Shown here: piece after piece, positions 36,630-64,000 of the stretch
How positions within the stretch are numbered: the first letter of the stretch is position 1
How the letters are laid out: the number at the start of each line of letters is the position of its first letter
DNA from: Clavibacter zhangzhiyongii
GTDB lineage: Bacteria; Actinomycetota; Actinomycetes; Actinomycetales; Microbacteriaceae
Assembly (NCBI RefSeq): GCF_014775655.1
Contig: NZ_CP061274.1
Coordinates: forward strand, 2,418,001 to 2,482,000
Direction: 5' to 3'
Length of the DNA: 64,000 nucleotides
Position numbers and translations under genes: made by a program
Notes under the pieces: generated by a model
What the model was told of the DNA's origin: nothing
Seen by the model: the letters and a program-made list of their open reading frames with translations, nothing else
The model's database searches: none

Positions 36630-37165
36630 GAGGCGGCTCCGGTCGCCGGGCCGGTGTCGGCCGCCGGGTCCGTCGCCGGGTGCACGGAGCCGCGGATCTG
36701 CGCGAGCACGTGGTCGAGGATCCCGTCGAGGAGCCCGAGCCCGTCGCGCACGCCGCCCGGCGAGCCCGGCAGGTTCATGACGAACGCCCCGCCCGCGGCG
36801 CCCGCGTGCCCGCGCGTCAGCACGGCCGTGGGCGTGTGGGCCGTGCCGATGCGGCGGGCCTCCTCCATGATCCCGGGGAGCTCGAGGTCGAGGAGCGGGC
36901 GGGTCGCCTCGGGGGTGCGGTCGGTGGGCGTGACGCCCGTGCCGCCCGTGGTGAGGATCACGCGCGCGTCGCCCGCGACGGCCTCGGCGAGCGCCGCGGC
37001 GACCCCGGGCCCGTCGGCGCGCACGTGCGGACCGTCGACCGCGAAGCCGCGCTCGGCGAGCCAGGCGGCGATGACGGGACCGGTGCGGTCCTCGTACTCC
37101 CCCGCGGCGGCGCGCGTGGAGGCGACGATCACGACGGCGCGGCCGCGCGGGTCCGCCGCGGTCAT
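36626..37165 (-). CDS. mogA: Molybdopterin adenylyltransferase (MogA/MoaB family)
   Basis: 179-residue MoCF-fold enzyme that activates molybdopterin by adenylation before molybdenum insertion. The signature TTGGTGVTPTDRTPEATRP near 110 and the substrate region AGGAFVMNLPGSPGGVRDGL are intact. It overlaps moaC by 4 nt and moaE by 4 nt. Naming as mogA or moaB is a matter of subfamily; function is the same by family. Confidence 0.92.
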   Translation of the reverse strand: MTAADPRGRAVVIVASTRAAAGEYEDRTGPVIAAWLAERGFAVDGPHVRADGPGVAAALAEAVAGDARVILTTGGTGVTPTDRTPEATRPLLDLELPGIMEEARRIGTAHTPTAVLTRGHAGAAGGAFVMNLPGSPGGVRDGLGLLDGILDHVLAQIRGSVHPATDPAADTGPATGAAS

Positions 37166-37659
37166 GCCCGCTCCCAGTCGCCGGACTTGCCGCCCTGCTT
37201 CTCGCGCACGAGCACGTCGGTGATCACGGCGCGCGCGTCGACCGCCTTGAGCATGTCGTAGAGCGTGAGCGCGGCGACCGACGCGGCCGTGAGCGCCTCC
37301 ATCTCGACGCCCGTGGCGCCCGTGGTGCTGACGGACGCGACCACGGTGAGCCGGTCCCCGTCGCCGGTGATGTCGATCTCGATGCGGCCGATCGGCAGCG
37401 GGTGGCAGAGCGGGATGAGGTCCGACGTCCGCTTCGCCGCCATGATCCCCGCGATGCGCGCCGTGCCGACGGCCTCGCCCTTGGGGAGGTCGCCCGTGAT
37501 CACGGCCGCGACGACCTCGGGTCGCGTGACGAGCACGGCCTGCGCGACGGCGCGGCGCTTCGTGACGGCCTTGTCGGTCACGTCGACCATGTGGGCGGAG
37601 CCGTCCTGCCGCAGGTGCGTGAGGGACGGCGCGGCGGCGCTCGTCGCGGGATCAGTCAT
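37162..37659 (-). CDS. moaC: Cyclic pyranopterin monophosphate synthase
   Basis: 165-residue enzyme that completes precursor Z (cPMP) from the MoaA product. Seen: MVDVTDKAVTKRRAVA, the long conserved segment AAKRTSDLIPLCHPLPI, and TGATGVEMEALTAASVAAL followed by YDMLKAVD. The partner MoaA is absent from the window. The ATG lies 8 nt inside the end of moeA, so translation is coupled. Confidence 0.95.
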   Translation of the reverse strand: MTDPATSAAAPSLTHLRQDGSAHMVDVTDKAVTKRRAVAQAVLVTRPEVVAAVITGDLPKGEAVGTARIAGIMAAKRTSDLIPLCHPLPIGRIEIDITGDGDRLTVVASVSTTGATGVEMEALTAASVAALTLYDMLKAVDARAVITDVLVREKQGGKSGDWERA

Positions 37660-38947
37660 CGATGCTCCAGACGGTGACGGGGTCGCCGGCCTCGAGCCGC
37701 TCGAGCCCTGCGGGGATGTGGACGAGGTGGGTGGCGGTCGCGTACGCGTGCAGGAGGTGGGATCCGGGCCCGCCGACCGCGACGACGCGGCCGTCGGCGT
37801 CGAGGCGCCCGCGGCGCACCTGGTGCTTGCCGGCGGGCGAGTCGAGCGGGGCCGCGAGCGGCAGCTCCCGCGACGGGCGGTCGGCGTGCGCGCGGCCGGC
37901 GATCCGCCGCAGCACGGGACGCAGGAACAGCTCGAACGAGACGAGCGCGCTGACGGGGTTGCCGGGGAAGGCGACCACCGGGATGCGCGCGCCGCCGAGG
38001 TCCGCCGTGCCGAGCCCCTGTGGCCCGCCCGGCTGCACGGCGACGGAGGCGAACTCCACGCCGCCGCCCTCGAGCACGTCGCGCACGACCTCGTAGGCGC
38101 CCGCGCTGACCCCGCCCGTCGTGACCAGCAGGTCGACGCCGCGGGCGGCGTCGCGGAGGGCATCGCGCACCCGGTCGGCGTCGTCGGACGCGACCCGCAG
38201 GGCGCGGACCTCGACGCCCGCATCCTGCAGGGACGCGGCGAGCGCGACGGAGTTGGCGTCGTGGACCTGGCCGGGCGCGAGCTCCTCGCCGGGTCCGCGG
38301 AGCTCGAGGCCCGTGGAGAGGAGGAGGACGACGGGACGGCGGCGGACCGCGATGCGCGCGACGCCGGCCGACGCGAGGACGCCGAGGTGCGCCGGGAGGA
38401 GGCGCGTGCCGGCGGCGACGAGCACGCTGCCCGCGGCGAGGTCGCTGCCCTGGGCGCGGACGAAGGCGCCCGGATCCACGGGCGCGCGGAAGGAGACGGT
38501 GGCGTCGGCGGCGTCCTCGTCGACGAAGCGGTCAGGCGTCGCGGCCTCGATGGGCACGATCGCGTCGGCGCCGGGCGGGACGGGCGCGCCGGTCATGCAG
38601 GGGGCGGCGGTGCCGGGATCCAGGGGCGCGGCGGGGCGGCCCGCGGGGATCCGCGCGGCGATGCGGAGGACGGCCGGATCCCGATCGGTCGCGTCGGCGA
38701 GGTCGGCCGCGCGCACGGCGTAGCCGTCCATCTGCGAGTTGCGGAAGGGCGGCAGGTCGATGGGGCTCGTGACGTCGACGGCGAGGACGCGGCCGGCGAA
38801 CCGGTGCGGATCGCGGGTCAGCGCCTCCGCGGTCGCCGGCAGCTCCTCGGCCGGCAGCTCGGCGAGCGGGGCGAGGAGGTCGCGCACGGCCGCCCGGTGC
38901 TCGTCGACCGTGCGTCGTCGTCGGCCAGCGGGGCGGTCGGGGGTCAT
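37652..38947 (-). CDS. moeA: Molybdopterin molybdenumtransferase
   Basis: 431-residue enzyme inserting molybdate into adenylated molybdopterin. Seen: SQMDGYAVRAADLAD, the segment CMTGAPVPPGADAIVP, DANSVALAASLQDAGVEV, the MoCF motif LLVTTGGVSAGAYEVV, PVVAFPGNPVSALVSFE and a C-terminal domain IV. First gene of the cofactor operon, divergent from a small membrane protein gene with 117 bp between. The ATG was chosen over an upstream one giving an Arg/Ala/Pro-rich extension without similarity. It supports the two Moco oxidoreductases at 53.6 and 59.9 kb. Confidence 0.95.
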   Translation of the reverse strand: MTPDRPAGRRRRTVDEHRAAVRDLLAPLAELPAEELPATAEALTRDPHRFAGRVLAVDVTSPIDLPPFRNSQMDGYAVRAADLADATDRDPAVLRIAARIPAGRPAAPLDPGTAAPCMTGAPVPPGADAIVPIEAATPDRFVDEDAADATVSFRAPVDPGAFVRAQGSDLAAGSVLVAAGTRLLPAHLGVLASAGVARIAVRRRPVVLLLSTGLELRGPGEELAPGQVHDANSVALAASLQDAGVEVRALRVASDDADRVRDALRDAARGVDLLVTTGGVSAGAYEVVRDVLEGGGVEFASVAVQPGGPQGLGTADLGGARIPVVAFPGNPVSALVSFELFLRPVLRRIAGRAHADRPSRELPLAAPLDSPAGKHQVRRGRLDADGRVVAVGGPGSHLLHAYATATHLVHIPAGLERLEAGDPVTVWSIDD

Positions 38948-39064
38948 CCCCCCATCATCCCCCGGGGCGGGAGGGCGCGCGCCGGGCGGGATCGCCGCCC
39001 TCCCCCTTCGCGCACCGGCCAGGGGCCCTTGCCCCCGCCGCGCAGCCCGCGCGACCATGTGCGC

Positions 39065-39289
39065 ATGGATCCGCACGAGCGCCGACGCGCCGCCCTGCGC
39101 CGCGCGGTCGCCGCGGTCGGCGGCGTCCTCGTGGTCGCCGCGGTCGCGCTCGGCGTGGTGGGCGTGGTCGTCTACACGGGCGGATCCGACCTGGGCCTCC
39201 TGGCGCTCGTCGCCGCGCTCGCCCTGGTCACCGCGGGCGCGGGGCTGGTCGTCGCGGCCGTGCGGGCGGGGGCGGGTCGCCGGCGCTGA
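39065..39289 (+). CDS. Small two-span membrane protein
   Basis: 74 residues with a basic start (MDPHERRRAALRRA), two hydrophobic segments (about 16-38 and 43-66) and an Arg-rich end. No family recognised; conservation cannot be judged. It has no strong ribosome site. It lies divergent from moeA. Confidence 0.5.
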   Translation: MDPHERRRAALRRAVAAVGGVLVVAAVALGVVGVVVYTGGSDLGLLALVAALALVTAGAGLVVAAVRAGAGRRR

Positions 39290-40279: not shown

Positions 40280-41179
40280 GTGACCGACACCCCCGCCCCG
40301 GCATCCGCCTCCGCCCCCCGCGCCGAGATCGGCGTCATCGGCGGATCCGGCCTCTACGCCCTGCTCGACCCCGCGACCAGCACGTCGCACACGATCGAGA
40401 CGCCGTTCGGGCCGACCTCGAGCGAGGTCGCCGTCGGCGAGCTGGCCGGCCGCCGCGTCGCGTTCCTCACCCGGCACGGCGCCGACCACTCGGTCGCGCC
40501 GCACCTCATCGACTACCGGGCCAACGTGTGGGCGCTCGCGTCGCTCGGCGTCACGGCCATCGTCTCGTCCTCGGCCGTGGGCGGCGTCTCGCCGGACTAC
40601 CCGCCGGGATCGCTCGTGCTCACCGACCAGCTGCTCGACCGCACCTGGGGCCGGCCCGACACGTTCTTCGACCAGGGCGTCGTGCAGCACCTCTCCGCCG
40701 CGGATCCCTTCGACCCCGAGCTGCACGGCCTCGCCGCCGCGGCGCTCGTGGAGCTCGAGGGCGGCGACCGGGCGGATCCCGCGGGGCCCCTGCGCACCTC
40801 CGGCACCGTGGTCGTGATCCAGGGGCCGCGCTTCTCCACCCGCGCCGAGTCGCTGTGGTTCCGCCAGGCCGGCGCGCACATCGTCAACATGACGCAGTAC
40901 CCCGAGGTGGTGCTCGCCTCCGAGCTGAACGTCGGCACGGTCAACCTGTCGTTCGTCACCGACGCCGATGCGGGACTCGCCCCGCTGCCCGGCGAGCAGG
41001 GCGACGCCGTCACGGCCGAGCTGGTCTTCACGCGGCTGAAGGAGGCGCAGCCGCGCATCGTGCGGGCGATCGAGGCGGTCATCCGCGCGATCCCCGCCGG
41101 CTACCGCGGGCGGCCGCTCATCGACCCGGACGCCGTGGCCTCCGTGCTCGCGCGTCCGACGACCGGGGCGCGCTCGTGA
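40280..41179 (+). CDS. mtnP: S-methyl-5'-thioadenosine phosphorylase
   Basis: 299-residue nucleoside phosphorylase that salvages MTA to adenine and methylthioribose 1-phosphate. Seen: GVIGGSGLYALLDP, the phosphate loop LTRHGADHSVAPHLIDYRAN, GPRFSTRAESLWFRQAGAH and MTQYPEVVLASELNV. GTG start after GAAGGAG. It overlaps the following epimerase gene (GTGA), an unexpected partner for methionine salvage. Actinobacterial MtnP may also act on adenosine; specificity is not readable here. Confidence 0.92.
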   Translation: MTDTPAPASASAPRAEIGVIGGSGLYALLDPATSTSHTIETPFGPTSSEVAVGELAGRRVAFLTRHGADHSVAPHLIDYRANVWALASLGVTAIVSSSAVGGVSPDYPPGSLVLTDQLLDRTWGRPDTFFDQGVVQHLSAADPFDPELHGLAAAALVELEGGDRADPAGPLRTSGTVVVIQGPRFSTRAESLWFRQAGAHIVNMTQYPEVVLASELNVGTVNLSFVTDADAGLAPLPGEQGDAVTAELVFTRLKEAQPRIVRAIEAVIRAIPAGYRGRPLIDPDAVASVLARPTTGARS

Positions 41180-42240
41180 GCGACGGGGTCCTCCTCGTCA
41201 CGGGCGGCGCGGGCTTCATCGGCGGCACGGTCGTGCAGGCGGCGCTCGCGGAGGGACGGCGCGTGCGCGTCCTGGACTCGCTGCGGGCCGACGTGCACGG
41301 CGGCGAGCCGGACGTGGATCCGCGCGTCGAGCTCGTCCGCGGCGACGTCACGGACCCGGACGCCGTCGCGCGCGCCCTCGAGGGCGTCGACGTCGTCTGC
41401 CACCAGGCCGCGAAGGTCGGCTTGGGCGTCGACTTCCTCGACGCCCCCGACTACGTCGCCACGAACGACGGCGGCACCGCGATCCTCCTCGCCGGGATGA
41501 CCCGCGCGGGCATCGACCGCCTCGTGCTCGCCAGCTCGATGGTCGTCTACGGCGAGGGCGCGTACGCGGGCGCTGACGGGCCGGTGCGCCCGCCCGCGCG
41601 CCGCGTCGCCGACCTCGACGCGGGGATGTACGACCCCGTGGACCCCGCCACGGGCGAGCCGCTCGTCCCCACGCTCATCGGCGAGGACGTGCCGCTGGAT
41701 CCGCGCAACGTCTACGCCACCACGAAGCTCGCGCAGGAGAACCTCGCGAGCTCCTGGACCCGTGCCACGGGCGGCCGCGCCGCCGCGCTCCGCTACCACA
41801 ACGTGTACGGCCCGGGCATGCCGCAGAACACGCCGTACGCGGGCGTCGCGTCGCTGTTCCGCTCGGCGCTCGCGCGCGGCGAGGCCCCGCGCGTCTTCGA
41901 GGACGGCCGGCAGCGCCGCGACTTCGTGCACGTGCGCGACGTCGCGAGCGCCAACCTCGCCGCGCTCGCCTGGACCGCGGATCGCGAGGCCGGGTCCTTC
42001 CGCGCCTTCAACGTCGGCAGCGGCACCGTGCACACCATCGGCGAGATGGCGGAGGCGCTCGCGCGCGAGGCCGGCGGATCCGCGCCCGTCACCACGGGCG
42101 AGTACCGGCTCGGCGACGTGCGGCACATCACGGCGTCGTCGGAGCGCCTGCGCACGGAGCTCGGCTGGGAGCCCGCCATGACGTTCGCGGAGGGCATGCG
42201 CGAGTTCGCGACGGCGCCGCTGCGGAGCGCGGTCGTCTGA
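41176..42240 (+). CDS. NAD-dependent epimerase/dehydratase (extended SDR)
   Basis: 354-residue nucleotide-sugar epimerase or dehydratase family member. Rossmann motif LLVTGGAGFIGGTVVQAAL at the start, HQAAKVGLGVDFLD, catalytic YATTK (Tyr about 184), and RRDFVHVRDVASANL. By layout it resembles UDP-glucose 4-epimerase/WcaG-type enzymes. It is translationally coupled to mtnP by a 4-nt overlap and is followed by a hairpin. Substrate uncertain. Confidence 0.9.
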   Translation: MSDGVLLVTGGAGFIGGTVVQAALAEGRRVRVLDSLRADVHGGEPDVDPRVELVRGDVTDPDAVARALEGVDVVCHQAAKVGLGVDFLDAPDYVATNDGGTAILLAGMTRAGIDRLVLASSMVVYGEGAYAGADGPVRPPARRVADLDAGMYDPVDPATGEPLVPTLIGEDVPLDPRNVYATTKLAQENLASSWTRATGGRAAALRYHNVYGPGMPQNTPYAGVASLFRSALARGEAPRVFEDGRQRRDFVHVRDVASANLAALAWTADREAGSFRAFNVGSGTVHTIGEMAEALAREAGGSAPVTTGEYRLGDVRHITASSERLRTELGWEPAMTFAEGMREFATAPLRSAVV

Positions 42241-49954: not shown

Positions 49955-49961
49955 GCCGCCC

Positions 49962-53619: not shown

Positions 53620-55239
53620 TCAGGCGACGCTGACGGTGATGCCGTGCCAGCCCGTCGCGCCGTCGGGGGCGGGCGGCGCCTCGTCGGAGGTCTGCGTGGC
53701 ACCCGTGGTGTCGGTCGCGCGCACCTCGACGCGGTGGGATCCGCTCGTCGCGTCCCACGCGTACGACCACTGCCGCCAGGTGTCCGCGCCCACGCCGTCG
53801 CCGAGCGTCGCCTCGACCCAGTCGCCCTCGTCGACGCGCACCTCCACGCGCTCGATGCCGGTGTGCTGCGCCCAGGCCATGCCCGCGACCGCGACGCGGC
53901 CGGCGTCCACGCGGACGCCCGAGCGCGGGGTGTCGATGCGCGAGCCGGTCTTGATGGGCCCGCGCTCGGTCCAGCCGCGCGTCGACCAGTAGGCGACGTC
54001 CTCGGCGAAGGTCGTGACCTTCAGCTCGGTGACCCACTTGGTGGCCGAGACGTAGCCGTAGAGGCCGGGCACGACCATCCGCACGGGGAAGCCGTGCTGC
54101 TGCGGCAGGGGCTCGCCGTTCATGCCGACGGCGAGGATCGAGGCGCGGTCGGGATCCGTGAGCGCCTCGAGGGGCGTGCTCGCGGTCCAGCCGTCCTGGC
54201 TCGTGGAGAGCACCATGTCGGCGCCGGCGGTGGGGCGGGCCCGCTCGAGCAGCAGGCGGATCGGGTAGCCGAGCCAGAGCGCATTGCCGATCAGGTTCCC
54301 GCCGACCTCGTTGGAGACGCAGGTGAGGGTGGTCACGTGCTCCTCGAGGGGGAGGGCGAGCAGCTCCGCGAAGGAGATCTCGACCTCCTCCTCGACCATG
54401 CCGGTGATGCGCAGCCGCCACGACGCCGCGTCGACCGACGGCACCTGGAGCGCGGTGTCGATGCGGTAGAAGGCGTCGGCGGGCGTGACGAAGGGGGCGA
54501 GGCCGGGGACGCCGAGCTCGGCGGAGGCGGGGATCGCGGCGGCGGGCGCGGCCGCGCGCGGGAGCACGAGCGTGCGGCGGAAGTCGTCCACGCGGGCGGC
54601 GGCGGCGTTGACGCCCCGGGCCACGGATCCGGCGACCACGGAGGCGACGCCCGCGACGACGGTCATCACGAGGAAGGTGCGGCGCTCGACGCGGGCTCCG
54701 GCGCCCGGGGTGAGCGGGGCGCGCGCGGCCGGGCGGGCGATCCCGCGGACGGGCGCGGCGACCGCGGCCGCGGCGGTGTCGGCGCGGGCGACCGCGTCGC
54801 GCCAGTCGCGGAGGCGGTCGGCGCCGCGGTGGAGGATGAAGACGCCCGCGAGCATCCCGACGATCGTGGGGATCGCCGCGGCGCCCGTGGCCCCGGCGCG
54901 CGTCGTGGCGGCGAGCACCGCGACGCCGGCGAAGAGCGCGAGCACGACGACGCCCAGCGGCGGGCGGCGCACCTGCAGGATCCCGGCGAGGGCGGCGGCC
55001 GCGAGCACCACGAGCGCGAGCACCACGAGCAGCGCCGCCTTGTCGCCCGTGCCGAACAGGGCGATCACCGCGTCCTTCACGCCCGGGGGCACGAGGTCGA
55101 TGACCAGCGCGCCGACCGCGAGCACCGGGCTCGCCGCGGGCGCGACGAATGCCGCCGCGATCTCGGCGACGGCCAGCACCGCCAGCGCCGCGACGACCCC
55201 CAGGAACGCGGACCACGCGCGGAGGGCCGCACGGGTCAC
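53620..55239 (-). CDS. Membrane molybdopterin-dependent (sulfite-oxidase-fold) oxidoreductase 1
   Basis: 539 residues. About five N-terminal membrane segments (9-33, 37-60, 68-88, 94-112, 119-137), a cytoplasmic stretch, a twin-arginine motif at 186-187 (ARVERRTFLV) just before a sixth segment (190-206), then the Moco domain from about 250 with the molybdenum-ligand Cys307 in TLTCVSNEVGGNLIGNALW and a C-terminal dimerisation-type beta domain. The catalytic part would face outside. GTG start overlapping the kinase stop (GTGA): it is the output gene of a two-component operon. Substrate unknown; sulfite, nitrate or protein sulfoxide are only family possibilities. Confidence 0.9.
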   Translation of the reverse strand: MTRAALRAWSAFLGVVAALAVLAVAEIAAAFVAPAASPVLAVGALVIDLVPPGVKDAVIALFGTGDKAALLVVLALVVLAAAALAGILQVRRPPLGVVVLALFAGVAVLAATTRAGATGAAAIPTIVGMLAGVFILHRGADRLRDWRDAVARADTAAAAVAAPVRGIARPAARAPLTPGAGARVERRTFLVMTVVAGVASVVAGSVARGVNAAAARVDDFRRTLVLPRAAAPAAAIPASAELGVPGLAPFVTPADAFYRIDTALQVPSVDAASWRLRITGMVEEEVEISFAELLALPLEEHVTTLTCVSNEVGGNLIGNALWLGYPIRLLLERARPTAGADMVLSTSQDGWTASTPLEALTDPDRASILAVGMNGEPLPQQHGFPVRMVVPGLYGYVSATKWVTELKVTTFAEDVAYWSTRGWTERGPIKTGSRIDTPRSGVRVDAGRVAVAGMAWAQHTGIERVEVRVDEGDWVEATLGDGVGADTWRQWSYAWDATSGSHRVEVRATDTTGATQTSDEAPPAPDGATGWHGITVSVA

Positions 55240-56498
55240 GAGGCGACCGGCTTGCTGTACGGCAGGATCACGTCGAAGCGGCAGCCGCCGTCGACGTTCT
55301 GGACGGTGACGTCGCCGTCGTGCGCGCGCACGATGCCGCGGACGATCGCGAGGCCGAGGCCCGCGCCGCCACCGCCCGACGCGTAGCCGCCGTCGTGCGT
55401 GCCCTCCGCCTGCACGGCGGGATCCGGCGGCGCGGCCTCCGTGGCCGGCGCCGGGAAGTCGGGTCCGAGGGCGGGGCGGCCGGTGGCGCTCTTGCCGTAG
55501 GCGCGCGGGGTGCGGGATCCGGTGCTCCGCCAGCCCGCGTCGAACACGCGCGGGAGGTCGGCCTCGGGGATGCCGCCCGCCGTGTCCTCGACGGACAGGA
55601 CGGCGAGGTTGCCGGAGTCGCGGTGCGCGGAGATGACGATGCGGCCGCCCGGGAGCGACTGCTGGATGGCGTTCATGACGAGGTTGCCGACGACGCGCGA
55701 CAGCTCGCGGGGATCGCCCTGCACCACGAGGTCGTCGTGCGCGGTCACGCCGCGGAGGTCGACCTTGCGCGCCTGGGCGACCGGGCCGAGCTCGGCGACG
55801 GTGTCGCTCACGACGTCGTAGAGGGAGACGCGCTCGACGGCGAGCTCGAGGCTGCCCGAGTTGATGCGCGACAGCTCGAACAGGTCGTCGACCATGCCGT
55901 TGAGGCGGTTCGCCTGCACGCGGATCTGCCGGAAGTAGCGGTGCTCGTCGTCGACCATGCCGTCCTCGAGGGACTCCGCCATGGCGCGGATCCCGGCGAG
56001 CGGCGTGCGCAGGTCGTGCGACATCCACGCGATGAGCTCGCGGCGGCTGCGCTCCTGCGCCTCCATCCGGTCGCGGGCGTCGGCGAGGCGGCGGTTGGCG
56101 GCGCTCAGCTCGCGGGCGAGCTGCGCGAACTCGGTGCTGGTGGGGCGGCCGGGCTCGACCGCGGCCTCCTCGCCCATGGACGCGGCGTAGCGGCCGAGCT
56201 CGCGGCTTCCGCGCACGAGGGTCATGCCGAGCATCGCGGCCATCACGAGGGAGACGAGCGCGGAGACGGCCGCGACCGAGAGGAAGGCGGTGAGGCCGGC
56301 GTCGTCGACGAGCATGCCGGCGGTGACCGCGACCATGCCGCCCACGACCGAGAGCACGGCCGCGAGCGCGACCACGCAGATCTGCAGCACGAGCGAGCGG
56401 CGGCGGAGCAGGCGCAGCAGCACGCTCGCGCCGAGGCCGACGATGGCGGCGCAGACGAGCGCGGTCAGGACGACGATGAGGAAGGAGTCGGCGCTCAC
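55236..56498 (-). CDS. Two-component sensor histidine kinase
   Basis: 420 residues. Three hydrophobic segments at about 6-30, 37-62 and 70-94 and almost no extracytoplasmic domain; HAMP-like helix (about 95-145); phospho-acceptor His161 in AWMSHDLRTPLAGIRAM; N-box Asn near 276 (GNLVMNAIQQ); D-box VEDTAGGIPEADL; F-box FDAGWRST; G-box GAGLGLAIVRGIV. Between F and G boxes lie about 42 extra Pro/Ala/Gly-rich residues (331-372), giving an unusually long ATP lid. GTG start overlaps the response-regulator stop. Signal unknown; perhaps membrane or redox state. Confidence 0.93.
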   Translation of the reverse strand: MSADSFLIVVLTALVCAAIVGLGASVLLRLLRRRSLVLQICVVALAAVLSVVGGMVAVTAGMLVDDAGLTAFLSVAAVSALVSLVMAAMLGMTLVRGSRELGRYAASMGEEAAVEPGRPTSTEFAQLARELSAANRRLADARDRMEAQERSRRELIAWMSHDLRTPLAGIRAMAESLEDGMVDDEHRYFRQIRVQANRLNGMVDDLFELSRINSGSLELAVERVSLYDVVSDTVAELGPVAQARKVDLRGVTAHDDLVVQGDPRELSRVVGNLVMNAIQQSLPGGRIVISAHRDSGNLAVLSVEDTAGGIPEADLPRVFDAGWRSTGSRTPRAYGKSATGRPALGPDFPAPATEAAPPDPAVQAEGTHDGGYASGGGGAGLGLAIVRGIVRAHDGDVTVQNVDGGCRFDVILPYSKPVAS

Positions 56499-57328
56499 GC
56501 GTCGCCCTCGGCGGGCGCGACGGGCACGGCCGGCGCGGCGACCGCGGGCGTCGCGGCCTCCGGGTCGAACCGGTAGCCCACGCCCCACACGGTGCCGAGG
56601 AGCACGGGGTGCGCGGGATCCGCCTCGATCTTCTCCCGCAGCCGCCGCACGTGCACGGTGACGGTGGAGAGGTCGCCGATCTCCCAGCCCCACACGGAGC
56701 GGAGGAGGTCGTCGCGGCCGAAGACGCGGCGGGGGTTCCGCAGCAGGAAGGCGAGGAGGTCGAACTCGCGCGACGTGAGGGAGAGCATCGCGCCGGCCTG
56801 GTGGATCTCGCGCGCGCCGAGGTCGAGCACGAACGGCCCCGCGACGAAGGGCGGCTCGGGCACGGGCTCGGGCACCGTGCGGCGGAGCACGGCGCGGACG
56901 CGGAGCACGAGCTCGCGCGGGGAGAAGGGCTTCGCGAGGTAGTCGTCGGCGCCGGCGTCGAGGCCGTTGACGCGGTCCTCGCCCTGGCCGAGCGCCGTGA
57001 GCATCACGACGGGGACGGGCGACTCGGGGTGCAGGGCGCGGATCCGCCGGCACACCTCGAGGCCGTCGAGGCCGGGGAGCATGCGGTCGAGCACGACGAG
57101 GTCGGGCATCCGCTCGGTGGCGACGCGCACGGCCTCGAGGCCGTCGGCGACGGTCTCGACCTGGAAGCCGGAGGACTTGAGGTAGCGGCAGACGACCTCG
57201 TTGACCGTCGGGTCGTCCTCGACGACGAGGATCCGGCGGCCGCGCAGCGGATCCGGGCGCGAGGGGTCGGGCCGCGCGGGGTCGGGTCGGGCGGCGTCGG
57301 CGCGCGCGGGGTCGAAGGTGGGGCTCAC
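56495..57328 (-). CDS. OmpR-family response regulator
   Basis: 277 residues: a 30-residue N-terminal extension of DPARPDP-like repeats, receiver domain (about 31-148, phospho-acceptor Asp81 in VVLDRMLPGLDG), and a winged-helix DNA-binding domain (about 165-262; LTSREFDLLAFLLRNPRRVF, VWGWEIGDLSTVTVHVRRLR, GVGYRFDPE), then an Ala/Pro tail. First gene of the regulator-kinase-Moco oxidoreductase operon; divergent from the GT2 operon, which it may also control. The repeat extension could be shorter if a later start is used. Confidence 0.93.
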   Translation of the reverse strand: MSPTFDPARADAARPDPARPDPSRPDPLRGRRILVVEDDPTVNEVVCRYLKSSGFQVETVADGLEAVRVATERMPDLVVLDRMLPGLDGLEVCRRIRALHPESPVPVVMLTALGQGEDRVNGLDAGADDYLAKPFSPRELVLRVRAVLRRTVPEPVPEPPFVAGPFVLDLGAREIHQAGAMLSLTSREFDLLAFLLRNPRRVFGRDDLLRSVWGWEIGDLSTVTVHVRRLREKIEADPAHPVLLGTVWGVGYRFDPEAATPAVAAPAVPVAPAEGDA

Positions 57329-57436
57329 CCGGCCAGACTATGCGCCGGTCCCTGGGGCGGGCCCGGGCGTGTCCGGCTTGCGAGCGAGCCGTCACCCCTC
57401 CGCCGGCGCGCGGCGTCCGCTCCCGGTCGGGCCTCC

Positions 57437-57442
57437 TAGGCT
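57437..57442 (+). promoter_or_regulatory. Predicted -10 (TAGGCT), leaderless GT2 operon
   Basis: TAGGCT ends 6 nt before the ATG of the glycosyltransferase gene; no ribosome site is seen. Confidence 0.5.
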
Positions 57443-57448
57443 CCAAGG

Positions 57449-58156
57449 ATGATGCGAGCGCTGGTGGACGTGGTCCTGCCCTGCCTGGACGAGGCGGAGG
57501 CCCTGCCCTGGGTGCTCGGCCGCCTGCCCGAGGGGTACCGCGCGATCGTGGTCGACAACGGGTCCATCGACGGGTCGGCCGAGGTCGCGCGCGCGCACGG
57601 CGCCCTCGTGGTGACGGAGTCGCGGCGCGGGTTCGGGGCGGCGGCGCACGCGGGGCTCGAGGCGGCGACCGCGCCGCTCGTCGCGTTCTGCGACGCCGAC
57701 GCGTCGATGGATCCCGCGCTCCTCCCCCGCGTGGTCGACCCCGTCCGCGACGGCGAGCGCGACCTCGTGCTCGGCCGCCGCGTCCCGTCGGCGCGCGGCG
57801 CGTGGCCGGTGCACGCGCGCATCGCGAACCTCGAGCTCGCCCGGCGGCTGCGGCGGATCACGGGCGTGCCGCTGCACGACCTCGGGCCCATGCGCTGCGG
57901 ACGGCGCACCGAGCTGCTCGACCTCGGGATCCTCGACCGGCGCAGCGGCTATCCGCTGGAGATGCTGCTGCGGGCGTCGGCGGCCCGGTGGCGCATCCTG
58001 GAGGTGGACATGCCGTACGCGCCGCGCGTGGGGCGGTCCAAGGTGACCGGCACCGTGCGCGGGACCGTCCAGGCCGTGCGCGACATGTCGCGCGTGCTGG
58101 CCGAGGCGCGCGCCGCGGCGGCCGGAGCCGACCGCACCCCGGGAGGAGCCGCGTGA
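57449..58156 (+). CDS. Family 2 glycosyltransferase (polyprenol-phosphate sugar synthase type)
   Basis: 235 residues, soluble or peripherally attached, without membrane segments. GT-A fold signs: VVLPCLDEAEALPWVL at the start, VVDNGSIDGSAEVARAHGA, RRGFGAAAHAGLEAA, and CDADASMDP as the metal-binding DxD. It resembles dolichol/polyprenol-phosphate hexose synthases. It overlaps the next gene by 4 nt and leads a three-gene operon. Tandem ATGs; the second may be used. Confidence 0.9.
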   Translation: MMRALVDVVLPCLDEAEALPWVLGRLPEGYRAIVVDNGSIDGSAEVARAHGALVVTESRRGFGAAAHAGLEAATAPLVAFCDADASMDPALLPRVVDPVRDGERDLVLGRRVPSARGAWPVHARIANLELARRLRRITGVPLHDLGPMRCGRRTELLDLGILDRRSGYPLEMLLRASAARWRILEVDMPYAPRVGRSKVTGTVRGTVQAVRDMSRVLAEARAAAAGADRTPGGAA

Positions 58157-58836
58157 CCGCCGTCGTCGTCATCGCCAAGGAGTGCATCCCGGGCCGCGTG
58201 AAGACGCGCCTGCACCCGCCGTTCACGCTCGAGGAGGCCGCCGAGCTCGCGTCCGCGGCCCTCGCCGACACGCTCGCCGCCGTCGACACCGCCGCGCCCG
58301 ACCGCCGCGTCCTGCTCTTCGACGGCACCACCCCGCCCGCGGAGGCCGCCGGCTACGACGTGATCCCGCAGGTCGCGGGCGACCTCGACGAGCGCCTCGC
58401 CGCCATGTTCGACGCGCTCGACGGCCCCGTGCTCCTCGTCGGGATGGACACGCCGCAGCTCACCGCCGACCTGCTCCGCCCCGTGCTCGACTCGTGGGCC
58501 GACGGCGCGCGCGGTCCCGACGCCTGGTTCGGCCCGGCCAACGACGGCGGCTTCTGGGCGCTCGGGCTGCGGGATCCCGACGGCGGCCTCGTGCGCGGCG
58601 TGCCGATGTCGCGCGACGACACCGGGGCGATCCAGCTGTCGCGGCTGATCGACGCCGGGCTCGACGTGGCGATGCTGCCCGAGCTCACCGACGTGGACAC
58701 GGTCGACGACGCGCGGGAGGCCGCCGCGGCCGCCCCCGCCCATCGCTTCGCCGCCGCGCTCCGAATCCTGATGGTCGCCGCGGGGTCCCGCGACGCGTCC
58801 GATCCGACCGCACCACCGCAGGGGGAGTCCGCATGA
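58153..58836 (+). CDS. TIGR04282/DUF2064 family glycosyltransferase-like protein
   Basis: 227 residues. Family start VIAKECIPGRVKTRLHPPFT (a variant of APxPGxxKTRL), then LLVGMDTPQLTADLLRP and WFGPANDGGFWALGL. The family is annotated in arsenosugar biosynthesis, but that does not fit every occurrence, and no arsenic genes occur here. GTG start overlapping the GT2 gene; ATGA overlap with the methyltransferase gene. Probably a nucleotide- or sugar-phosphate-transferring enzyme acting with both. Confidence 0.88.
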   Translation: MTAVVVIAKECIPGRVKTRLHPPFTLEEAAELASAALADTLAAVDTAAPDRRVLLFDGTTPPAEAAGYDVIPQVAGDLDERLAAMFDALDGPVLLVGMDTPQLTADLLRPVLDSWADGARGPDAWFGPANDGGFWALGLRDPDGGLVRGVPMSRDDTGAIQLSRLIDAGLDVAMLPELTDVDTVDDAREAAAAAPAHRFAAALRILMVAAGSRDASDPTAPPQGESA

Positions 58837-59531
58837 GCCTGGCCGTCGAGCAGCCCGAGGAAAGCGCCGCGACGCGCGACCGCACCTTCGGATCCGGCGG
58901 CGGCGAGCCCTACGCCCGGGCGCTCCGCGACGCCGGCGAGGTCCTCTTCCTCTCGCTGTCCTCCGAGGACGACAGCGACGAGGTCATCGACATCAGCCGC
59001 TGGAGCGCCGACGCCGACGCGGTCGACGCCAGCCTGCTCGTCGACGCCCACGGACCCGTGCTCGACGTCGGCTGCGGCCCGGGCCGCATGGTCCGCGCCG
59101 CGATGGACGCCGGCCTCGGCGCCCTCGGCATCGACGTCTCCCCCACGGTGATCGAGATGGCCGCGGGCCTCGGCCTGCCCGTGCTGCACCGCTCCGTCTT
59201 CGAGCGCCTGCCGCGCGAGGGCGGCTGGGGCACGCTCCTCCTCCTCGACGGCAACATCGGCATCGGCGGCGACGCGGCCGCGCTCCTCGCCCGCTGCGGC
59301 GAGCTCCTCGACGACCAGGGCGCGCTCGTGGTGGAGACCCACGTGGATCCCGCCCGCGACCGCACCTTCGAGTGCACGGTCGAGGACGCCCAGGGCCGCG
59401 CGAGCGACCCCTTCCCGTGGGCGCAGGTCGGCCGCGACGCCGTTGCGCGCATGGCCCCCGGCGCGGGCCTCGCGCTCGCTCAGTGCTGGGAGACCGAGGG
59501 CCGGTCCTTCTGCCGCCTCGTCCGCGCGTAG
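58833..59531 (+). CDS. Class I SAM-dependent methyltransferase
   Basis: 232 residues. SAM-binding motif I VLDVGCGPGRMVRAAMDAG near 75-93, with GIDVSPTVIEMA following, then LLLLDGNIGIGGD as motif II/III. The N-terminal ~70 residues, including GEVLFLSLSSEDDSDEVIDI, are not part of the fold. Third gene of the GT2 operon. Its last 52 bp overlap the 3' end of the convergent membrane-protein gene. Acceptor unknown, perhaps the glycosylated product. Confidence 0.88.
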   Translation: MSLAVEQPEESAATRDRTFGSGGGEPYARALRDAGEVLFLSLSSEDDSDEVIDISRWSADADAVDASLLVDAHGPVLDVGCGPGRMVRAAMDAGLGALGIDVSPTVIEMAAGLGLPVLHRSVFERLPREGGWGTLLLLDGNIGIGGDAAALLARCGELLDDQGALVVETHVDPARDRTFECTVEDAQGRASDPFPWAQVGRDAVARMAPGAGLALAQCWETEGRSFCRLVRA

Positions 59532-59944
59532 AGCGCGGCGATCACGGCCGTCGCCACCGCGGTGGCGACCCACATGAGGGCGAGCCGCGGCGCGTAGTCG
59601 GCGATGAGGATGGTCGGGTTCTCGTTGCCGATCGCCCTCGCCCGGATCTCCGGCACGACCACGAGGGTCATCACGGCCATCACGACGACGCCGGCCTGCA
59701 CGATGACGAGCGCGCCCGGGGGCATCCGCCGCCCGGCCTTCCGCAGCAGGAGGCCCGCCGCGAAGACGACGGGCGACAGGATCGCGTCGTGCACGAGGAT
59801 CGCCAGCAGCAGGAACACGGCGACGCCGACCACCTGGTCGGTGCGCTGCGTGTCGAGCAGCGTGCGGACGCCGACGGCGAGGCCGATCACGCCCACGGCG
59901 ATGAGGATCACGCGGGCCGCGAGGATCCGACGGGTGCCGGTCAT
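59480..59944 (-). CDS. Small four-span membrane protein of the Moco operon
   Basis: 154 residues with about four membrane segments (LAARVILIAVGVIGLAVGV, VVGVAVFLLLAILVHDAIL, ALVIVQAGVVVMAVMTLVVV and ALMWVATAVATAVIAAL). No cofactor motifs apart from one buried His-Asp in ILVHDAILSP. The ATG shares a base with the upstream stop (TGATG), so it is coupled to the Moco oxidoreductase and may be its partner or quinone-side subunit (inference). No family recognised. Confidence 0.75.
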   Translation of the reverse strand: MTGTRRILAARVILIAVGVIGLAVGVRTLLDTQRTDQVVGVAVFLLLAILVHDAILSPVVFAAGLLLRKAGRRMPPGALVIVQAGVVVMAVMTLVVVPEIRARAIGNENPTILIADYAPRLALMWVATAVATAVIAALYARTRRQKDRPSVSQH

Positions 59945-61194
59945 CACACCACCTCCAGGGTCGAGAGCCACTTGGTCTGCAGCACGCCGGGGCGCCCGGG
60001 CGCGATCATGCGCGCCGGGTAGCCGTGCTGGATGTCGAGGGGCGCGCCGTCGAGCTCGAGCGCGACGAGGGTGAGCGGGTCGCGCACGTACTCCGGCCCC
60101 ATCTCGGTGGCCCGGAAGCCGCCGCTCTGCTCGAGGCTCGTGACGCGGAGGCGGGCGCCGGGGTCGGCGCCGACGGCGTCCATGAGGTCCATGAGGCGCA
60201 CGCCGCGCCACGTGGCCGACTGGCTCCAACCCTCGACGCACGCGATGGGCAGCGTGGCGGTGACGAGCTCCATGGCGCGGAGGTCGGCCATCGTGAAGGC
60301 GCGCGAGGCGGAGCCCGCCGAGACGGTGAGCGCCCACGCGGGATCCATCGCCGTCTCGGTCACGCCCGCGGCCTCGGCCGTGCGGTTGACGGGCAGCGCC
60401 TGCGGGCCGGTGCCCATGACGCGCGGGCCGAACGCGTTGAACGGCGCGAGGATCCGGAACGACTGCCCGGCGGTCAGCCCCACGACCGCGGCGACGGACG
60501 CGCCGACGGCGACGAGGAAGCCGCGGCGCGCGATCGGGGTCGGCGTGACGGGGGTGTCGTCGATCCAGGCGAGCACGCGGCCGGTGACGCCGCGCGGGGC
60601 GTCAGCGGACGCGGAGCCGGGCGCGGATGCGGACTCGGCGCCGACGGGCGCGTCCTCCACGATGGGCGACTCGTCCGCCTGCCCGCGCCGCCAGTGCCCG
60701 GCGATGGCGGGCAGCTTCACGCCGATGTGGATCGCGAGCGACCCGACCACCACGAACGCCAGCGCCCAGTGCGTCTGCCGGAAGTAGAACGGGAACGGCA
60801 CCCACTGGAACGTGTTGACGAGGCCGATGGCCACCTCGAGCAGCGACGCCCCGACGAACACGGCGATGGACGCGCGCTCCAGGAACGAGACCACGCCGGT
60901 GACGGGCGGGTACGTGAGCAGCTCGGGGAAGACGATCCAGAGCTTGGCGAGCAGCAGGGGCACGCACGCGATGCCGGCCGTGATGTGGATCCCCTGCGTC
61001 ACCCGGTACAGCGACACGGGCGCGGTCGGGAAGCGCATCCACGGCAGCGGCTCCTGCAGGTAGTGGCTGTAGAGGCCCGTGGCGAAGCAGACCAGGAAGG
61101 CGAGGCCGAGCAGGCGCCCGACCACCACCGCCAGGCGCGTCGTGCGCGCCGGGGAGGCGAGCCGGCGGCGCGCCTCGTGCATCAACGTGCGCAT
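59944..61194 (-). CDS. Membrane molybdopterin-dependent oxidoreductase 2 with cytochrome-b-like anchor
   Basis: 416 residues. Four N-terminal membrane segments (about 24-44, 66-90, 108-128, 140-160) contain histidines at 44, 70, 142 and 156, suggesting a heme-b-binding anchor like YedZ/cytochrome b561. After a polar loop comes a twin-arginine motif (RR at 223-224, PIARRGFLV) before a fifth segment, then the Moco domain with ligand Cys319 in LPIACVEGWSQSATWRGVRL and the ending GRPGVLQTKWLSTLEVV. It reads as a natural YedZ-YedY-like fusion. ATG after GGAGG. Divergent from the mannosyltransferase gene. Substrate unknown. Confidence 0.88.
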   Translation of the reverse strand: MRTLMHEARRRLASPARTTRLAVVVGRLLGLAFLVCFATGLYSHYLQEPLPWMRFPTAPVSLYRVTQGIHITAGIACVPLLLAKLWIVFPELLTYPPVTGVVSFLERASIAVFVGASLLEVAIGLVNTFQWVPFPFYFRQTHWALAFVVVGSLAIHIGVKLPAIAGHWRRGQADESPIVEDAPVGAESASAPGSASADAPRGVTGRVLAWIDDTPVTPTPIARRGFLVAVGASVAAVVGLTAGQSFRILAPFNAFGPRVMGTGPQALPVNRTAEAAGVTETAMDPAWALTVSAGSASRAFTMADLRAMELVTATLPIACVEGWSQSATWRGVRLMDLMDAVGADPGARLRVTSLEQSGGFRATEMGPEYVRDPLTLVALELDGAPLDIQHGYPARMIAPGRPGVLQTKWLSTLEVV

Positions 61195-61261
61195 GCGGAC
61201 CTCCGGGTCCCTCGGTGACGCGTCGGGGCCCCGGCGCGGCGGGCGCCCGGGGAGGGTTCGA

Positions 61262-61267
61262 CACAAT
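61262..61267 (+). promoter_or_regulatory. Predicted -10 (CACAAT), leaderless mannosyltransferase gene
   Basis: CACAAT lies 5 nt before the GTG start in the 78-bp divergent gap; a TTCGAC precedes it closely. Weak. Confidence 0.35.
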
Positions 61268-61272
61268 GGGGT

Positions 61273-62718
61273 GTGCGCACCGCCCTCACCGTCCTCGTCC
61301 TGGTCGTCATGGCCGCGCTCACCGGGTGGTCGGTCGTCGCGTTCGATCTGTTCGGAGCGGCCGACGACGAGGCCTTCTTCCGCCGCGAGGGTGCCGCGCC
61401 GCTGTTCTGGCTCGTGATCGTGCTCTGGTTGCTCTTCGGAGCCGCCGTGCTCCTGGTGCGGAAGGTCGAGCGACGGGACGCCACCCTGATCGTGGTGGCG
61501 GGCTCCCTCATCCTCGCGCTGGCGGCCATGGCCGGTCCGCCGAACACGAGCACCGACTCCGCACGCTACGCCTGGGACGGCATCGTCCAGGTGCACGGCA
61601 CGTCGCCGTACCTCCACACCCCCGCGGATCCGGACCTCCGCGACCTCCGGCCGGAGTGGTTGTACCCCGAGCCGGTGTTCCTCGACGACGGCACGTGGCG
61701 CTGCGAGGGCGAGCGCCTGCTGGGCCTCTACGAGACCGGCGGCGGCCCGCCCATGTGCACGGCGCTCAACCGGCCGCAGGTCCCGACCATCTACCCGCCG
61801 GCCGCGGAGATGTTCTTCGCGGGCGTCCGGGCCGTCGTGCCCGACGACGTCGGGTACGTGGCCTTCCAGGTCGCGGGCGTCCTCATCCACCTGGGCGTGA
61901 CGCTGCTGCTCGTGCGCGCCCTGCGGCAGCGCGGGAAGCCCGTGTGGTGGGCGGCGCTGTGGGGCTGGTGCCCGCTCGTCGCGAGCGAGGTCGTCACGAA
62001 CTCCCACGTCGACGCGCTCGGCGCGCTGCTCGCGCTGGCCGCGACGATCCTCGTCGCCGGCGGCATGCGCTGGCGCGGCGGGATCGCGATGGGGGCGGCC
62101 ATCGCGACCAAGCTCATCCCGGTGATCGCGGCCCCGGCGCTGCTGCGCCGCCAACCGTGGAAGGTCATCGTGGCGGCGGTCGTCACCTTCGCGGTGCTGT
62201 ACGTGCCGTACGTGGTCACCACGGGCATCGGCGTGCTCGGCTACCTGCCCGGCTACCTGCAGGAGGAGGGGTACGAGTCGGGCGGCACCTTCCCGCTCGT
62301 CGAGCTGGTCGTCCCCGACGGCTACGGGCTGCCGGTGGTCGCGCTCATCCTCGCGGTGACGGCCGGCGTCGTCTGGCGGCGGACGGACCCGGCGGATCCG
62401 TGGGTCGGCCAGGTCGTGATGATCGGCGTGACGCTCCTCGCCGTCAGCCCCCGCTACTCCTGGTACGCGCTGCTGCTCATCCCGTTCATCGCCATGACGG
62501 GCCGCGGCGAGTGGTTCGCGGTGGTGGGCGCGCTCGCGCTGCGGCTGTTCGCGCCGGACATCTGGGCGTGGCAGATCGCGCTCGTGACGGCCGTCGTGGT
62601 CGTCGTGGCCGGCTCGCTCGTGCGCCTCGGGCCGGACGGGCGGCGGGAGCTCGTGCCGCCGGCCGTGCGGCGGCGGCTCGGCCGGGCGCGCATCCCCGCG
62701 GACGGGCCCGGCGCCTGA
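61273..62718 (+). CDS. Polytopic GT-C glycosyltransferase (GT87/mannosyltransferase-like)
   Basis: 481 residues with about eleven hydrophobic segments. An Asp in the first outside loop (TSTDSARYAWDGIVQVHGTSPY), VPTIYPPAAEMFFAG and AIATKLIPVIAAPALL fit GT-C enzymes that use polyprenol-phosphate sugars, such as GT87 mannosyltransferases. It is the natural acceptor-side partner of the GT2 polyprenol-phosphate synthase 4 kb away. GTG start, apparently leaderless. The C-terminal ~40 residues are basic and cytoplasmic. Confidence 0.82.
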   Translation: MRTALTVLVLVVMAALTGWSVVAFDLFGAADDEAFFRREGAAPLFWLVIVLWLLFGAAVLLVRKVERRDATLIVVAGSLILALAAMAGPPNTSTDSARYAWDGIVQVHGTSPYLHTPADPDLRDLRPEWLYPEPVFLDDGTWRCEGERLLGLYETGGGPPMCTALNRPQVPTIYPPAAEMFFAGVRAVVPDDVGYVAFQVAGVLIHLGVTLLLVRALRQRGKPVWWAALWGWCPLVASEVVTNSHVDALGALLALAATILVAGGMRWRGGIAMGAAIATKLIPVIAAPALLRRQPWKVIVAAVVTFAVLYVPYVVTTGIGVLGYLPGYLQEEGYESGGTFPLVELVVPDGYGLPVVALILAVTAGVVWRRTDPADPWVGQVVMIGVTLLAVSPRYSWYALLLIPFIAMTGRGEWFAVVGALALRLFAPDIWAWQIALVTAVVVVVAGSLVRLGPDGRRELVPPAVRRRLGRARIPADGPGA

Positions 62719-62740: not shown

Positions 62741-63808
62741 TCAGGCGCCGCGCGGGACCGTGACGCGCAGCTCCTCGCCCGCGGTCGGCCGGAGCGCGGC
62801 GAAGGCGGCGGCGTCGAGCTCCGCGGTGACCTCGGCTCCCGCGTCCGGGACGAGGTCGGCCGCGGCCGGGGCGCCGCCGGCGGACGCGACGAGGCGCAGC
62901 GTCACCCGGATCCGACCGGCCGCGGCCTCCACGCGACGGACGACGCCGGTGAGCCGCGCGCGGGTCGCGTCGGACGGCAGGGCGTCCGGCCCCCGCGTCA
63001 GCCGCACGTCCGCGGGCGAAGCGAGCAGCACGACCGCGCCGCCCGCCGCGTCCCGCCCCTCGACGCGGTTCATGCCGACGAGCCGGGCCACGTACGCCGT
63101 CGCCGGGCGGGCCGCGACGTCGGCGGGCGCGCCCTCCTGCACCCGGCGTCCGCCCTCCAGCACGTGGATCCGGTCGGCCAGCGCCAGCGCGTCCACCGGA
63201 TCGTGCGTCACGAGCACGCCCGCGCCGCCGAACCGCCGGAGCTCGTCGGCGAGGAGGTCGCGCACGTCCAGCCGCGTTCCCGCGTCGAGCGCGGCCATCG
63301 GCTCGTCGAGGAGCAGCAGCGGCGGCTCGAGCACGAGCGCGCGGGCGAGCGCGACACGCTGCGACTGGCCGCCCGACAGCGCGGCCGGGCGCCGGTCGGC
63401 GAGGTGCGCGATGCCGAGCCGGTCGAGGAGGGCGCGCGCCCGGACATCGGCGTCCGCGCGGGCGACGCCGTGCGCCCGCGGCCCGAACGCCACGTTCGCC
63501 AGCGCCGACAGGTGAGGGAAGAGGAGGTGGTCCTGGAAGACGACGCCGACGCCGCGGCCCTCGGCGGGGATCCGCGCGGCGCCGCCGTCCGCGTCCTCGA
63601 GCACCCGGCCGTCGAGCGCGACGCGCCCCGCCGTCAGCGGCACGAGCCCCGCGAGCGCGCGGAGCAGCGTGGACTTGCCGGCGCCGTTGGGGCCGACGAC
63701 CGCGGTCACGGATCCGGCCGGCACCCGCAGCCGGACGTCGAGCCGGAAGGCGGGGCGCTGGACGACGACGCGCGCGTCGAGCCCGCGGTCGGGCACGGCG
63801 CCGCTCAC
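62741..63808 (-). CDS. modC: Molybdate ABC transporter ATP-binding protein
   Basis: 355 residues. Walker [20 protein letters not shown] near 41, Q-loop [17 protein letters not shown], signature [15 protein letters not shown], Walker [14 protein letters not shown]-loop [14 protein letters not shown]-terminal TOBE-like domain (about 290-355) should bind oxyanion. Molybdate specificity is inferred from the ModB-like gene it overlaps by 4 nt (GTGA) and from the nearby Moco enzymes. GTG start chosen by this overlap. Confidence 0.9.
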
Positions 63809-64000
63809 GCGCGCACCCCCGACGTCCACCGGTCGCGGAGGCCCACGAGCACGACGACCGACACCGCGAGCAGCACCAGGCTGAGCACGACGGCGGCGTC
63901 CGGATCCGTCTGCAGCGCCAGGTAGGCCGACAGCGGGATCGTCTGGGTCACCCCCGGGAAGCTCCCCGCGAAGGTGAGCGTCGCCCCGAACTCGCCGAGC
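63805..64000 (-). CDS. modB: Molybdate ABC transporter permease (5' part outside window)
   Basis: Only the C-terminal 64 residues are visible. They contain the ModB hallmark [20 protein letters not shown], then [20 protein letters not shown] and a final membrane segment [17 protein letters not shown]. It forms the channel for molybdate import with ModC. Its stop overlaps the modC start. A ModA-binding-protein gene would be expected just beyond the window. Confidence 0.88.

Follow-up and report, generated by a model that had tools for sequence, protein, structure and literature searches.

Methylthioxylose (MTX) has been described as a hallmark of the lipoarabinomannan (LAM) of Mycobacterium tuberculosis (PMC8531672), where MtxS (Rv0539) is reported to make polyprenyl-linked MTX and MtxT (Rv0541c) to transfer it to LAM (PMC8780516). 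The starting metabolite is given as 5'-methylthioadenosine (MTA) and the transfer from the polyprenyl-linked donor as extracytoplasmic (PMC11127046); the title of a paper cited in PMC4248442 names Rv0535 as an MTA phosphorylase. Here, we compare this pathway with a locus of nine genes at positions 53620-62718 of a 64,000-nt stretch (the window) of the Clavibacter zhangzhiyongii genome (GCF_014775655.1, a single contig of 3.098 Mb; NZ_CP061274.1:2,418,001-2,482,000, forward strand). The genes code for a response regulator (RR), a histidine kinase (HK), two molybdenum cofactor (Moco) oxidoreductases (Moco1 and Moco2), a soluble family 2 glycosyltransferase (GT2), a TIGR04282 protein, a methyltransferase (MT), a small membrane protein and a GT87-family glycosyltransferase of the GT-C type; an MTA phosphorylase-like protein (MTAP) and a GalE-like epimerase (EPI) are encoded elsewhere in the window.

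As for the oxidoreductases, the closest description is that of the Sco3746 family (Tooke et al., PMC5449189), with five transmembrane domains (TMDs), heme histidines, a twin-arginine motif before TMD5 and a C-terminal Moco domain; Sco3746 itself is encoded by Streptomyces coelicolor. The same source reports twin-arginine translocation (Tat)-dependent export by reporter fusions, names MsrP/MsrQ as distant homologues and, in the part of it accessible to us, assigns no function. The comparison with these systems suggests that the Clavibacter locus probably serves to produce a 5-deoxy-5-methylthio-pentose, to expose it at the cell surface and to maintain the redox state of its sulfur. The conserved core of the locus and its likeness to the MTX pathway also fit the guess of the first-pass annotation, namely a cell-surface glycoconjugate or redox-repair system.

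Conservation and co-distribution of the locus

A search with the TIGR04282 protein (E<=1e-10) gave matches in 56 of 248 Actinomycetota genomes, at 58 places. The 40 loci that were fetched comprise 39 of these places (the better-scoring ones, own genome aside; 19 were left out) plus one same-genus locus; some are short contigs (L036, L039), and many of the genomes are draft assemblies. Of the 40 loci, 23 (22 of the 39 from other genera) have GT2, TIGR04282, MT and Moco2 close to one another, and these 23 loci also harbor RR and HK (21), an epimerase (21) and one of two GT-C types (all 23). Thus, the co-occurrence of at least four of the genes, which the first-pass annotation had named as support for a system, extends beyond close relatives to distant genera and families. 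Overall, an epimerase is present in 32 of the 40 loci, and a homologue of the small protein adjoins Moco2 in 6. In one same-family locus (L021:7526-8621), the Moco2 gene is split over two reading frames, with its neighbours found, which might reflect either a broken gene or an assembly error.

The distribution across genomes points in the same direction. GT2 is found in 41 of the 248 genomes (E<=2e-40, a cut-off that takes in G179 at 1.2e-40 and leaves out G067 at 2.4e-40), all of which have a TIGR04282 match at E<=1e-10, although in G104 this match is weak and lies 1.1 Mb from GT2. EPI (E<=1e-90) occurs in 39 genomes, all inside the GT2 set, and full-length Moco2 (E<=1e-30) in 36 of the 41; at these cut-offs, both placed in gaps of the score lists, neither occurs in the other 207. 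MT (E<=1e-12) is present in 32 genomes, all within the GT2 set, and a GT-C of the MtxT type in 29 of the 41 and, at the cut-off used, in none of the 207. At the genus level, all 19 genera with Moco2 are among the 24 with GT2 (161 genera in total). A looser Moco2 cut-off (E<=1e-15) adds seven genomes outside the GT2 set, and a stricter one for GT2 (1e-60) leaves five Moco2 genomes outside it. Sister genomes that lack GT2, such as G183 (family f5) or G172, G193, G215 and G227 (family f1), also lack the rest. The genes are moreover physically close, since GT2 lies within 20 kb of TIGR04282 in 40 of 41 genomes, of EPI in 37 of 39 and of Moco2 in 29 of 36, and MT and Moco2 lie within the same distance in 29 of the 31 genomes with both (the exceptions being G062 and G247). 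A chance cluster was therefore rejected for the core, which recurs in distant families and co-occurs genome by genome even when unlinked; the core genes are a real and widely conserved system.

Moco1 is outside this conserved core. It resembles SorA but has a membrane part at its N-terminus, and its best solved match is a sulfite:cytochrome c oxidoreductase. Among the 40 fetched loci, the same-genus L055 is the one in which Moco1 was found as a gene of its own, co-operonic with RR-HK as in the window; in 20 other loci, Moco1 matches nothing but the Moco2 gene, owing to the shared domain. The idea that both Moco enzymes form one system was rejected on this count, so that, of the pair assigned to the system by the first-pass annotation, Moco2 stays and Moco1 does not. 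The CutRS secretion-stress system was rejected as a match for the two-component pair, the main text of PMC12802291 containing neither glycosyl nor molyb terms.

Comparison with the methylthioxylose pathway and the Sco3746 family

We likened the locus to Rv0536-Rv0541c of M. tuberculosis because the order epimerase - GT2 - TIGR04282 - convergent GT-C recurs. In this region we take the epimerase to be Rv0536 and the TIGR04282 protein to be Rv0540. The comparison rests on gene order in 80 named Mycobacteriaceae loci (the best 80 among the matches listed, several of them cut by contig ends), not on M. tuberculosis sequences. In these loci the order MTAP > epimerase > two positions without assignment > GT2 > TIGR04282 > < GT-C agrees with the Rv numbering, and L043 has two gene calls of fitting size in the gap between the epimerase and GT2. 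Among the best 80 listed, 41 loci show the MTX-type order without the other genes of the set, while MT, RR and HK lie inside the MTX-type locus in 23 and Moco2 in 21. In mycobacterial genomes with a relocated Moco2, MT is alongside it in three (L152-L154) and on a separate contig in G247. GT2 is 53-56% identical to its mycobacterial counterparts.

The link with MTX predicted that an MTAP and a GalE-like epimerase should be found in the Clavibacter genome, and both were found adjacent, with a 4-base overlap, at 40280-42240. The best NCBIfam families of the former are MTAP ones, below both cut-offs (267 bits vs 306 and 247 vs 275), and that of the latter is galE (134 bits vs 262). MTAP adjoins EPI also in L021 and in 63 of the best 80 Mycobacteriaceae loci listed, and in G188, a genome of the same family, both genes stand beside Moco2. 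MTAP itself (E<=1e-30) is present in 118 of the 248 genomes (36 of 41 with GT2 vs 82 of 207 without it). We propose that EPI is a ribo-to-xylo epimerase.

As judged from sequence comparison, the glycosylation half of the locus thus resembles the known MTX capping pathway, with the set GT2/TIGR04282/epimerase/MTAP common to the window and the named Mycobacteriaceae loci; the first-pass annotation knew of no characterised pathway joining these genes with two sulfite-oxidase-fold enzymes, a view that no longer holds for this half. However, the window has a GT87 protein in place of the MtxT-type GT-C, its MTAP-EPI pair lies about 15 kb off, it adds MT, Moco2, the small protein and the two-component system, and the acceptor in Clavibacter may be other than LAM.

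Concerning the glycosyltransferases, the nearest NCBIfam model of GT2 is a dolichyl-phosphate hexose transferase (74.9 bits vs a cut-off of 375). No match to the MtxT-type GT-C was found in the Clavibacter genome at E<=1e-15. At E<=1e-60, the GT87 protein of the window has matches in 5 of 241 genomes, each of which belongs to the GT2 set and lacks an MtxT-type GT-C; because they never occur together, the two look like alternatives, and we propose that the GT87 protein transfers the polyprenyl-linked sugar in the place of the MtxT type. These data fit the earlier suggestion of GT2 as a polyprenol-phosphate sugar synthase and of the GT-C as its user, while the term "mannosyltransferase" is reduced to a GT87 family label. 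Seven genomes with GT2 lack both GT-C types (G241, G104, G013, G026, G076, G179 and G184), and a third transferase type is expected in them.

The TIGR04282 protein scores 110.6 bits on its model over positions 1-188 of 189 (cut-off 134) and, weakly, 34.5 bits on the nucleotidyltransferase CofC (cut-off 105). Its alignment shows invariant K17 T18 R19, D99 and D131 G132 G133. From these similarities and from the parallel cluster of family f18 (see below), we infer that TIGR04282 proteins may activate 5-substituted pentose 1-phosphates; the literature on the family yielded nothing of use. MT is below all Pfam cut-offs other than Methyltransf_11, with D78 and G80-R85 (GCGPGR) invariant. For the small membrane protein, Pfam gave no match; it appears multi-helix by eye, and H52-D53, N109 and D116-Y117 are invariant in 7 of 7 sequences (window, L024, L033, L038, L046, L051, L055). 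It is possibly an extra subunit.

Moco2 matches the published structural features of the Sco3746 family, by comparison with their description and not with the Sco3746 sequence, and on this basis would be one of these heme-Moco proteins. Five transmembrane helices are predicted at 19-47, 60-92, 101-128, 138-170 and 223-244 (AlphaFold, mean pLDDT 80); H70, H142, H156, R223-R224 and C319 are invariant in 23 of 23 aligned sequences, with the three histidines in transmembrane helices, the twin arginine before helix 5 and the Cys in a CVxGWS-like motif of the C-terminal Moco domain. Given the Tat signal inside the protein, the catalytic domain is expected, by analogy, to be outside, where the sugar lies. 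In sulfite oxidase, the loop after the Mo-ligand Cys binds sulfite. Moco2 has a short CVEGWS loop at this Cys and ends after the Mo domain, and in the alignment of a homologue's domain with chicken sulfite oxidase, a gap takes up the place of the C-AGNRR loop; an identity as sulfite oxidase was rejected, both the post-Cys loop and the dimerisation domain being absent.

The methylsulfinyl form of MTX (MSX) is reported to be present in LAM (PMC8531672), and the title of a 2009 paper, listed as a reference in PMC5911930, speaks of a natural carbohydrate substrate for MsrA; on these grounds we propose that Moco2 acts on the sulfoxide of a surface sugar. The locus shares with MsrPQ (YedYZ) an extracytoplasmic Moco domain, a b-heme membrane domain and a linked two-component system. 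In contrast, Moco2 combines the two parts in one polypeptide, is linked to a sugar pathway and shows no specific kinship to MsrP over sulfite oxidases (30.2 bits on the NCBIfam MsrP model vs a cut-off of 207).

In the pathway that we propose, MTAP would cleave MTA to adenine and 5-methylthioribose 1-phosphate, and the TIGR04282 protein would convert the latter to a nucleotide sugar. The GalE-like enzyme would carry out a ribo-to-xylo epimerisation, the order of which relative to the other steps is not fixed. The MtxS-like GT2 would then transfer the sugar to polyprenyl phosphate and, after flipping, the GT-C (GT87 here, the MtxT type elsewhere) would attach it to a surface glycan. Lastly, Moco2, with its Tat-exported catalytic domain and b hemes connecting it to the quinone pool, would reduce the methylsulfinyl group to the thioether, and RR-HK would regulate the module.

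Organization of the locus and neighbouring genes

The nine genes (Table 1) are open and oriented as first annotated, with Pfam and NCBIfam backing their labels, and form four apparent transcription units arranged about two divergent gaps. RR-HK-Moco1 diverges from GT2-TIGR04282-MT, with 120 bp between RR and GT2, and Moco2-small protein diverges from the GT87 gene across 78 bp. Start/stop overlaps of 4 bases occur inside both three-gene units, the Moco2 stop overlaps the start of the small-protein gene (TGATG), and the 3' ends of the convergent MT and small-protein genes overlap at 59480-59531.

Table 1. Coordinates of the genes of the locus and of its neighbours in the window.
Feature	Position	Strand	Basis
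S-methyl-5'-thioadenosine phosphorylase-like (MTAP, Rv0535 type)	40280..41179	+	PF01048 over cut-off
GalE-like NAD-dependent epimerase (EPI)	41176..42240	+	65% identity to L018-locus epimerase, E 1.8e-122
Moco1, membrane-anchored SUOX-fold oxidoreductase, last in RR-HK-Moco1 operon	53620..55239	-	PF00174 149.7 bits, Big_7
Sensor histidine kinase (HK)	55236..56498	-	HisKA, HATPase_c over cut-off
OmpR-type response regulator (RR)	56495..57328	-	Response_reg, Trans_reg_C over cut-off
GT2, soluble, polyprenol-phosphate sugar synthase type (MtxS-like)	57449..58156	+	PF00535 69.6 bits, over cut-off
TIGR04282/DUF2064 protein, CofC-related family	58153..58836	+	DUF2064 73 bits, over cut-off
Class I S-adenosylmethionine (SAM) methyltransferase (MT)	58833..59531	+	Methyltransf_11 23.7 bits vs cut-off 21.2
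Small membrane protein, downstream of Moco2	59480..59944	-	start overlaps Moco2 stop
Moco2, putative Sco3746-type heme-Moco oxidoreductase, SUOX domain	59944..61194	-	PF00174 77.5 bits, over cut-off
GT87-family GT-C	61273..62718	+	PF09594 50.3 bits, over cut-off
moaE, moaB/mog, moeA (Moco synthesis, context)	36198..39076	-	NCBIfam best matches
ABC ATPase read as ModC (context)	62741..63829	-	named by inspection of open reading frames

The first-pass annotation had included neither the MTAP-EPI pair nor the molybdenum genes on the two sides, that is, moaE/moaB/moeA and the mod/moaA genes from 62741 onward. The best NCBIfam matches of the former three are below curated cut-offs, save for the TIGR00177 domain model on moaB/mog (91.4 vs 85.35); to the right of modC, beyond the window, lie genes that on inspection look like modB and moaA. 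These flanking genes would account for the supply of Moco and were kept out of the conserved core. PF00174 is above cut-off in both oxidoreductases of the locus and in a third gene elsewhere in the genome (L156:7988-8656), whose product has no membrane helices by eye and a short Cys loop (IHCVTTW). At 47863-51353 of the window, a putative permease of the DUF318 kind is followed by a TIGR03943-like gene, both read by eye.

A divergent parallel cluster with an MTAP-like and GT2 pair is present in family f18 (six genomes, L146-L151); all of the six loci but L148 encode a TIGR04282 protein, and all but L151 a GalE-like epimerase. L149 and L150, read gene by gene, additionally code for a radical SAM/SPASM protein, a methyltransferase and a membrane protein, and selD is close by in L150. 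The product of this cluster may be a different 5-substituted pentose. The arsenosugar-associated TIGR04282/TIGR04283 setting likewise has a TIGR04282 protein next to a GT2, and both settings presumably concern 5-deoxy-5-substituted pentofuranoses. However, the genes of the locus include neither ArsM nor ArsS, and its GT2 is far under the TIGR04283 cut-off (35.7 bits vs 182); a direct arsenosugar cassette was rejected, the radical SAM protein of L149 scoring 34 bits on ArsS (cut-off 300).

Alternative readings and significance

Several observations weigh against the synthesis and redox maintenance of a surface methylthiopentose. The reactions, and the substrate and direction of Moco2, are deduced from what was observed, that is, gene content, domains, invariant residues, synteny and co-distribution; the p values for co-distribution take no account of phylogeny, and the thresholds were chosen once the tables had been viewed. 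A TIGR04282 match also occurs in 15 of the 207 genomes without GT2 and is hence not specific. MTAP is a common enzyme, found in merely 11 of the 40 fetched loci, a strong copy of which is missing from 5 of the 41 GT2 genomes, and in Clavibacter the MTAP-EPI pair is distant from GT2. Moco2 is absent at the cut-off from 5 of the 41 GT2 genomes, among them G044, which has GT2, MT and the GT-C and in which EPI is absent at its cut-off as well. By profile scores the Moco2 domain is no closer to MsrP than to sulfite oxidases, and Foldseek retrieves the general SUOX fold, with MsrP, sulfite dehydrogenases and PruR alike. MT is given no place in the proposed steps and, among the open-licence papers listed in our searches, none reports a methylthiopentose, or a tie of such a sugar to a Moco enzyme, outside mycobacteria.

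The alternative that survives best, even if unlikely, is that Moco2 works oxidatively, or acts on the sugar and not on its sulfur, a sulfoxide or other modified sugar being the mature product. Indeed, MSX-bearing termini are reported to be abundant in LAM digests (PMC8531672), and oxidases and dehydrogenases are numerous among the relatives of this fold family; against this stand the absence of the long post-Cys loop of sulfite oxidase and the statement in PMC7759655 that the enzymes of Group 1 (YedY-type) probably all act as reductases, with membrane cytochromes as their electron source, a group in which the membership of Moco2 is not established.

According to another model, which we judge improbable, the glycosylation module makes the methylthiopentose and Moco2, as a fused MsrPQ, is a methionine-sulfoxide reductase of envelope proteins, with regulation as the only thing shared. 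An enzyme for the general repair of proteins would be expected in genomes lacking the sugar pathway as well, whereas full-length Moco2 at E<=1e-30 is confined to genomes with GT2 (36 of 41 vs 0 of 207); this outweighs, in our opinion, the naming of MsrP/MsrQ as distant homologues of the Sco3746 family (PMC5449189) and the two-component control that MsrPQ and the present locus have in common.

We likewise give little credence to the possibility that the lipid-linked sugar is not derived from MTA, GT2, TIGR04282 and EPI making some other polyprenyl-linked sugar and MTAP serving ordinary methionine salvage. The figures for MTAP given above (118 of 248 genomes, nearby in 11 of 40 loci, no strong copy in five GT2 genomes) would suit it, but MTAP adjoins EPI in the window, in L021 and in most of the Mycobacteriaceae loci listed, where the pathway has been published as that of methylthioxylose. 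Finally, that the Moco enzymes are mere neighbours by chance in a molybdenum gene island, present owing to the moa/moe/mod genes, is scarcely tenable: in Clavibacter, the locus does have genes for Moco synthesis and for a putative transporter of molybdate on its two sides, yet the core recurs in distant families (where flanking Moco genes were sought only as ModC), so that this account is largely refuted for the core and is the best one for Moco1.

A 2024 paper describes it as unclear whether the MTX reaction exists outside LAM assembly (PMC11127046). If the locus makes and maintains a surface methylthiopentose, as we consider probable, it offers a testable answer concerning an MTX-type reaction beyond LAM in actinobacteria, and also a reason for a thioether on an envelope sugar. 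As a broader and more tentative idea, it is possible that many Actinomycetota bear a methylthiopentose as a renewable oxidant trap, the sulfoxide of which is re-reduced by a quinol-driven enzyme of the Sco3746 family, with TIGR04282 proteins as general activators of 5-deoxy-5-heteroatom pentoses. If the oxidant-trap idea were true, this would be, to our knowledge, the first known enzyme dedicated to repairing an oxidised glycan. What is new here is a genomic context and a candidate substrate for the orphan Sco3746 family, together with a candidate reaction for the TIGR04282 family.

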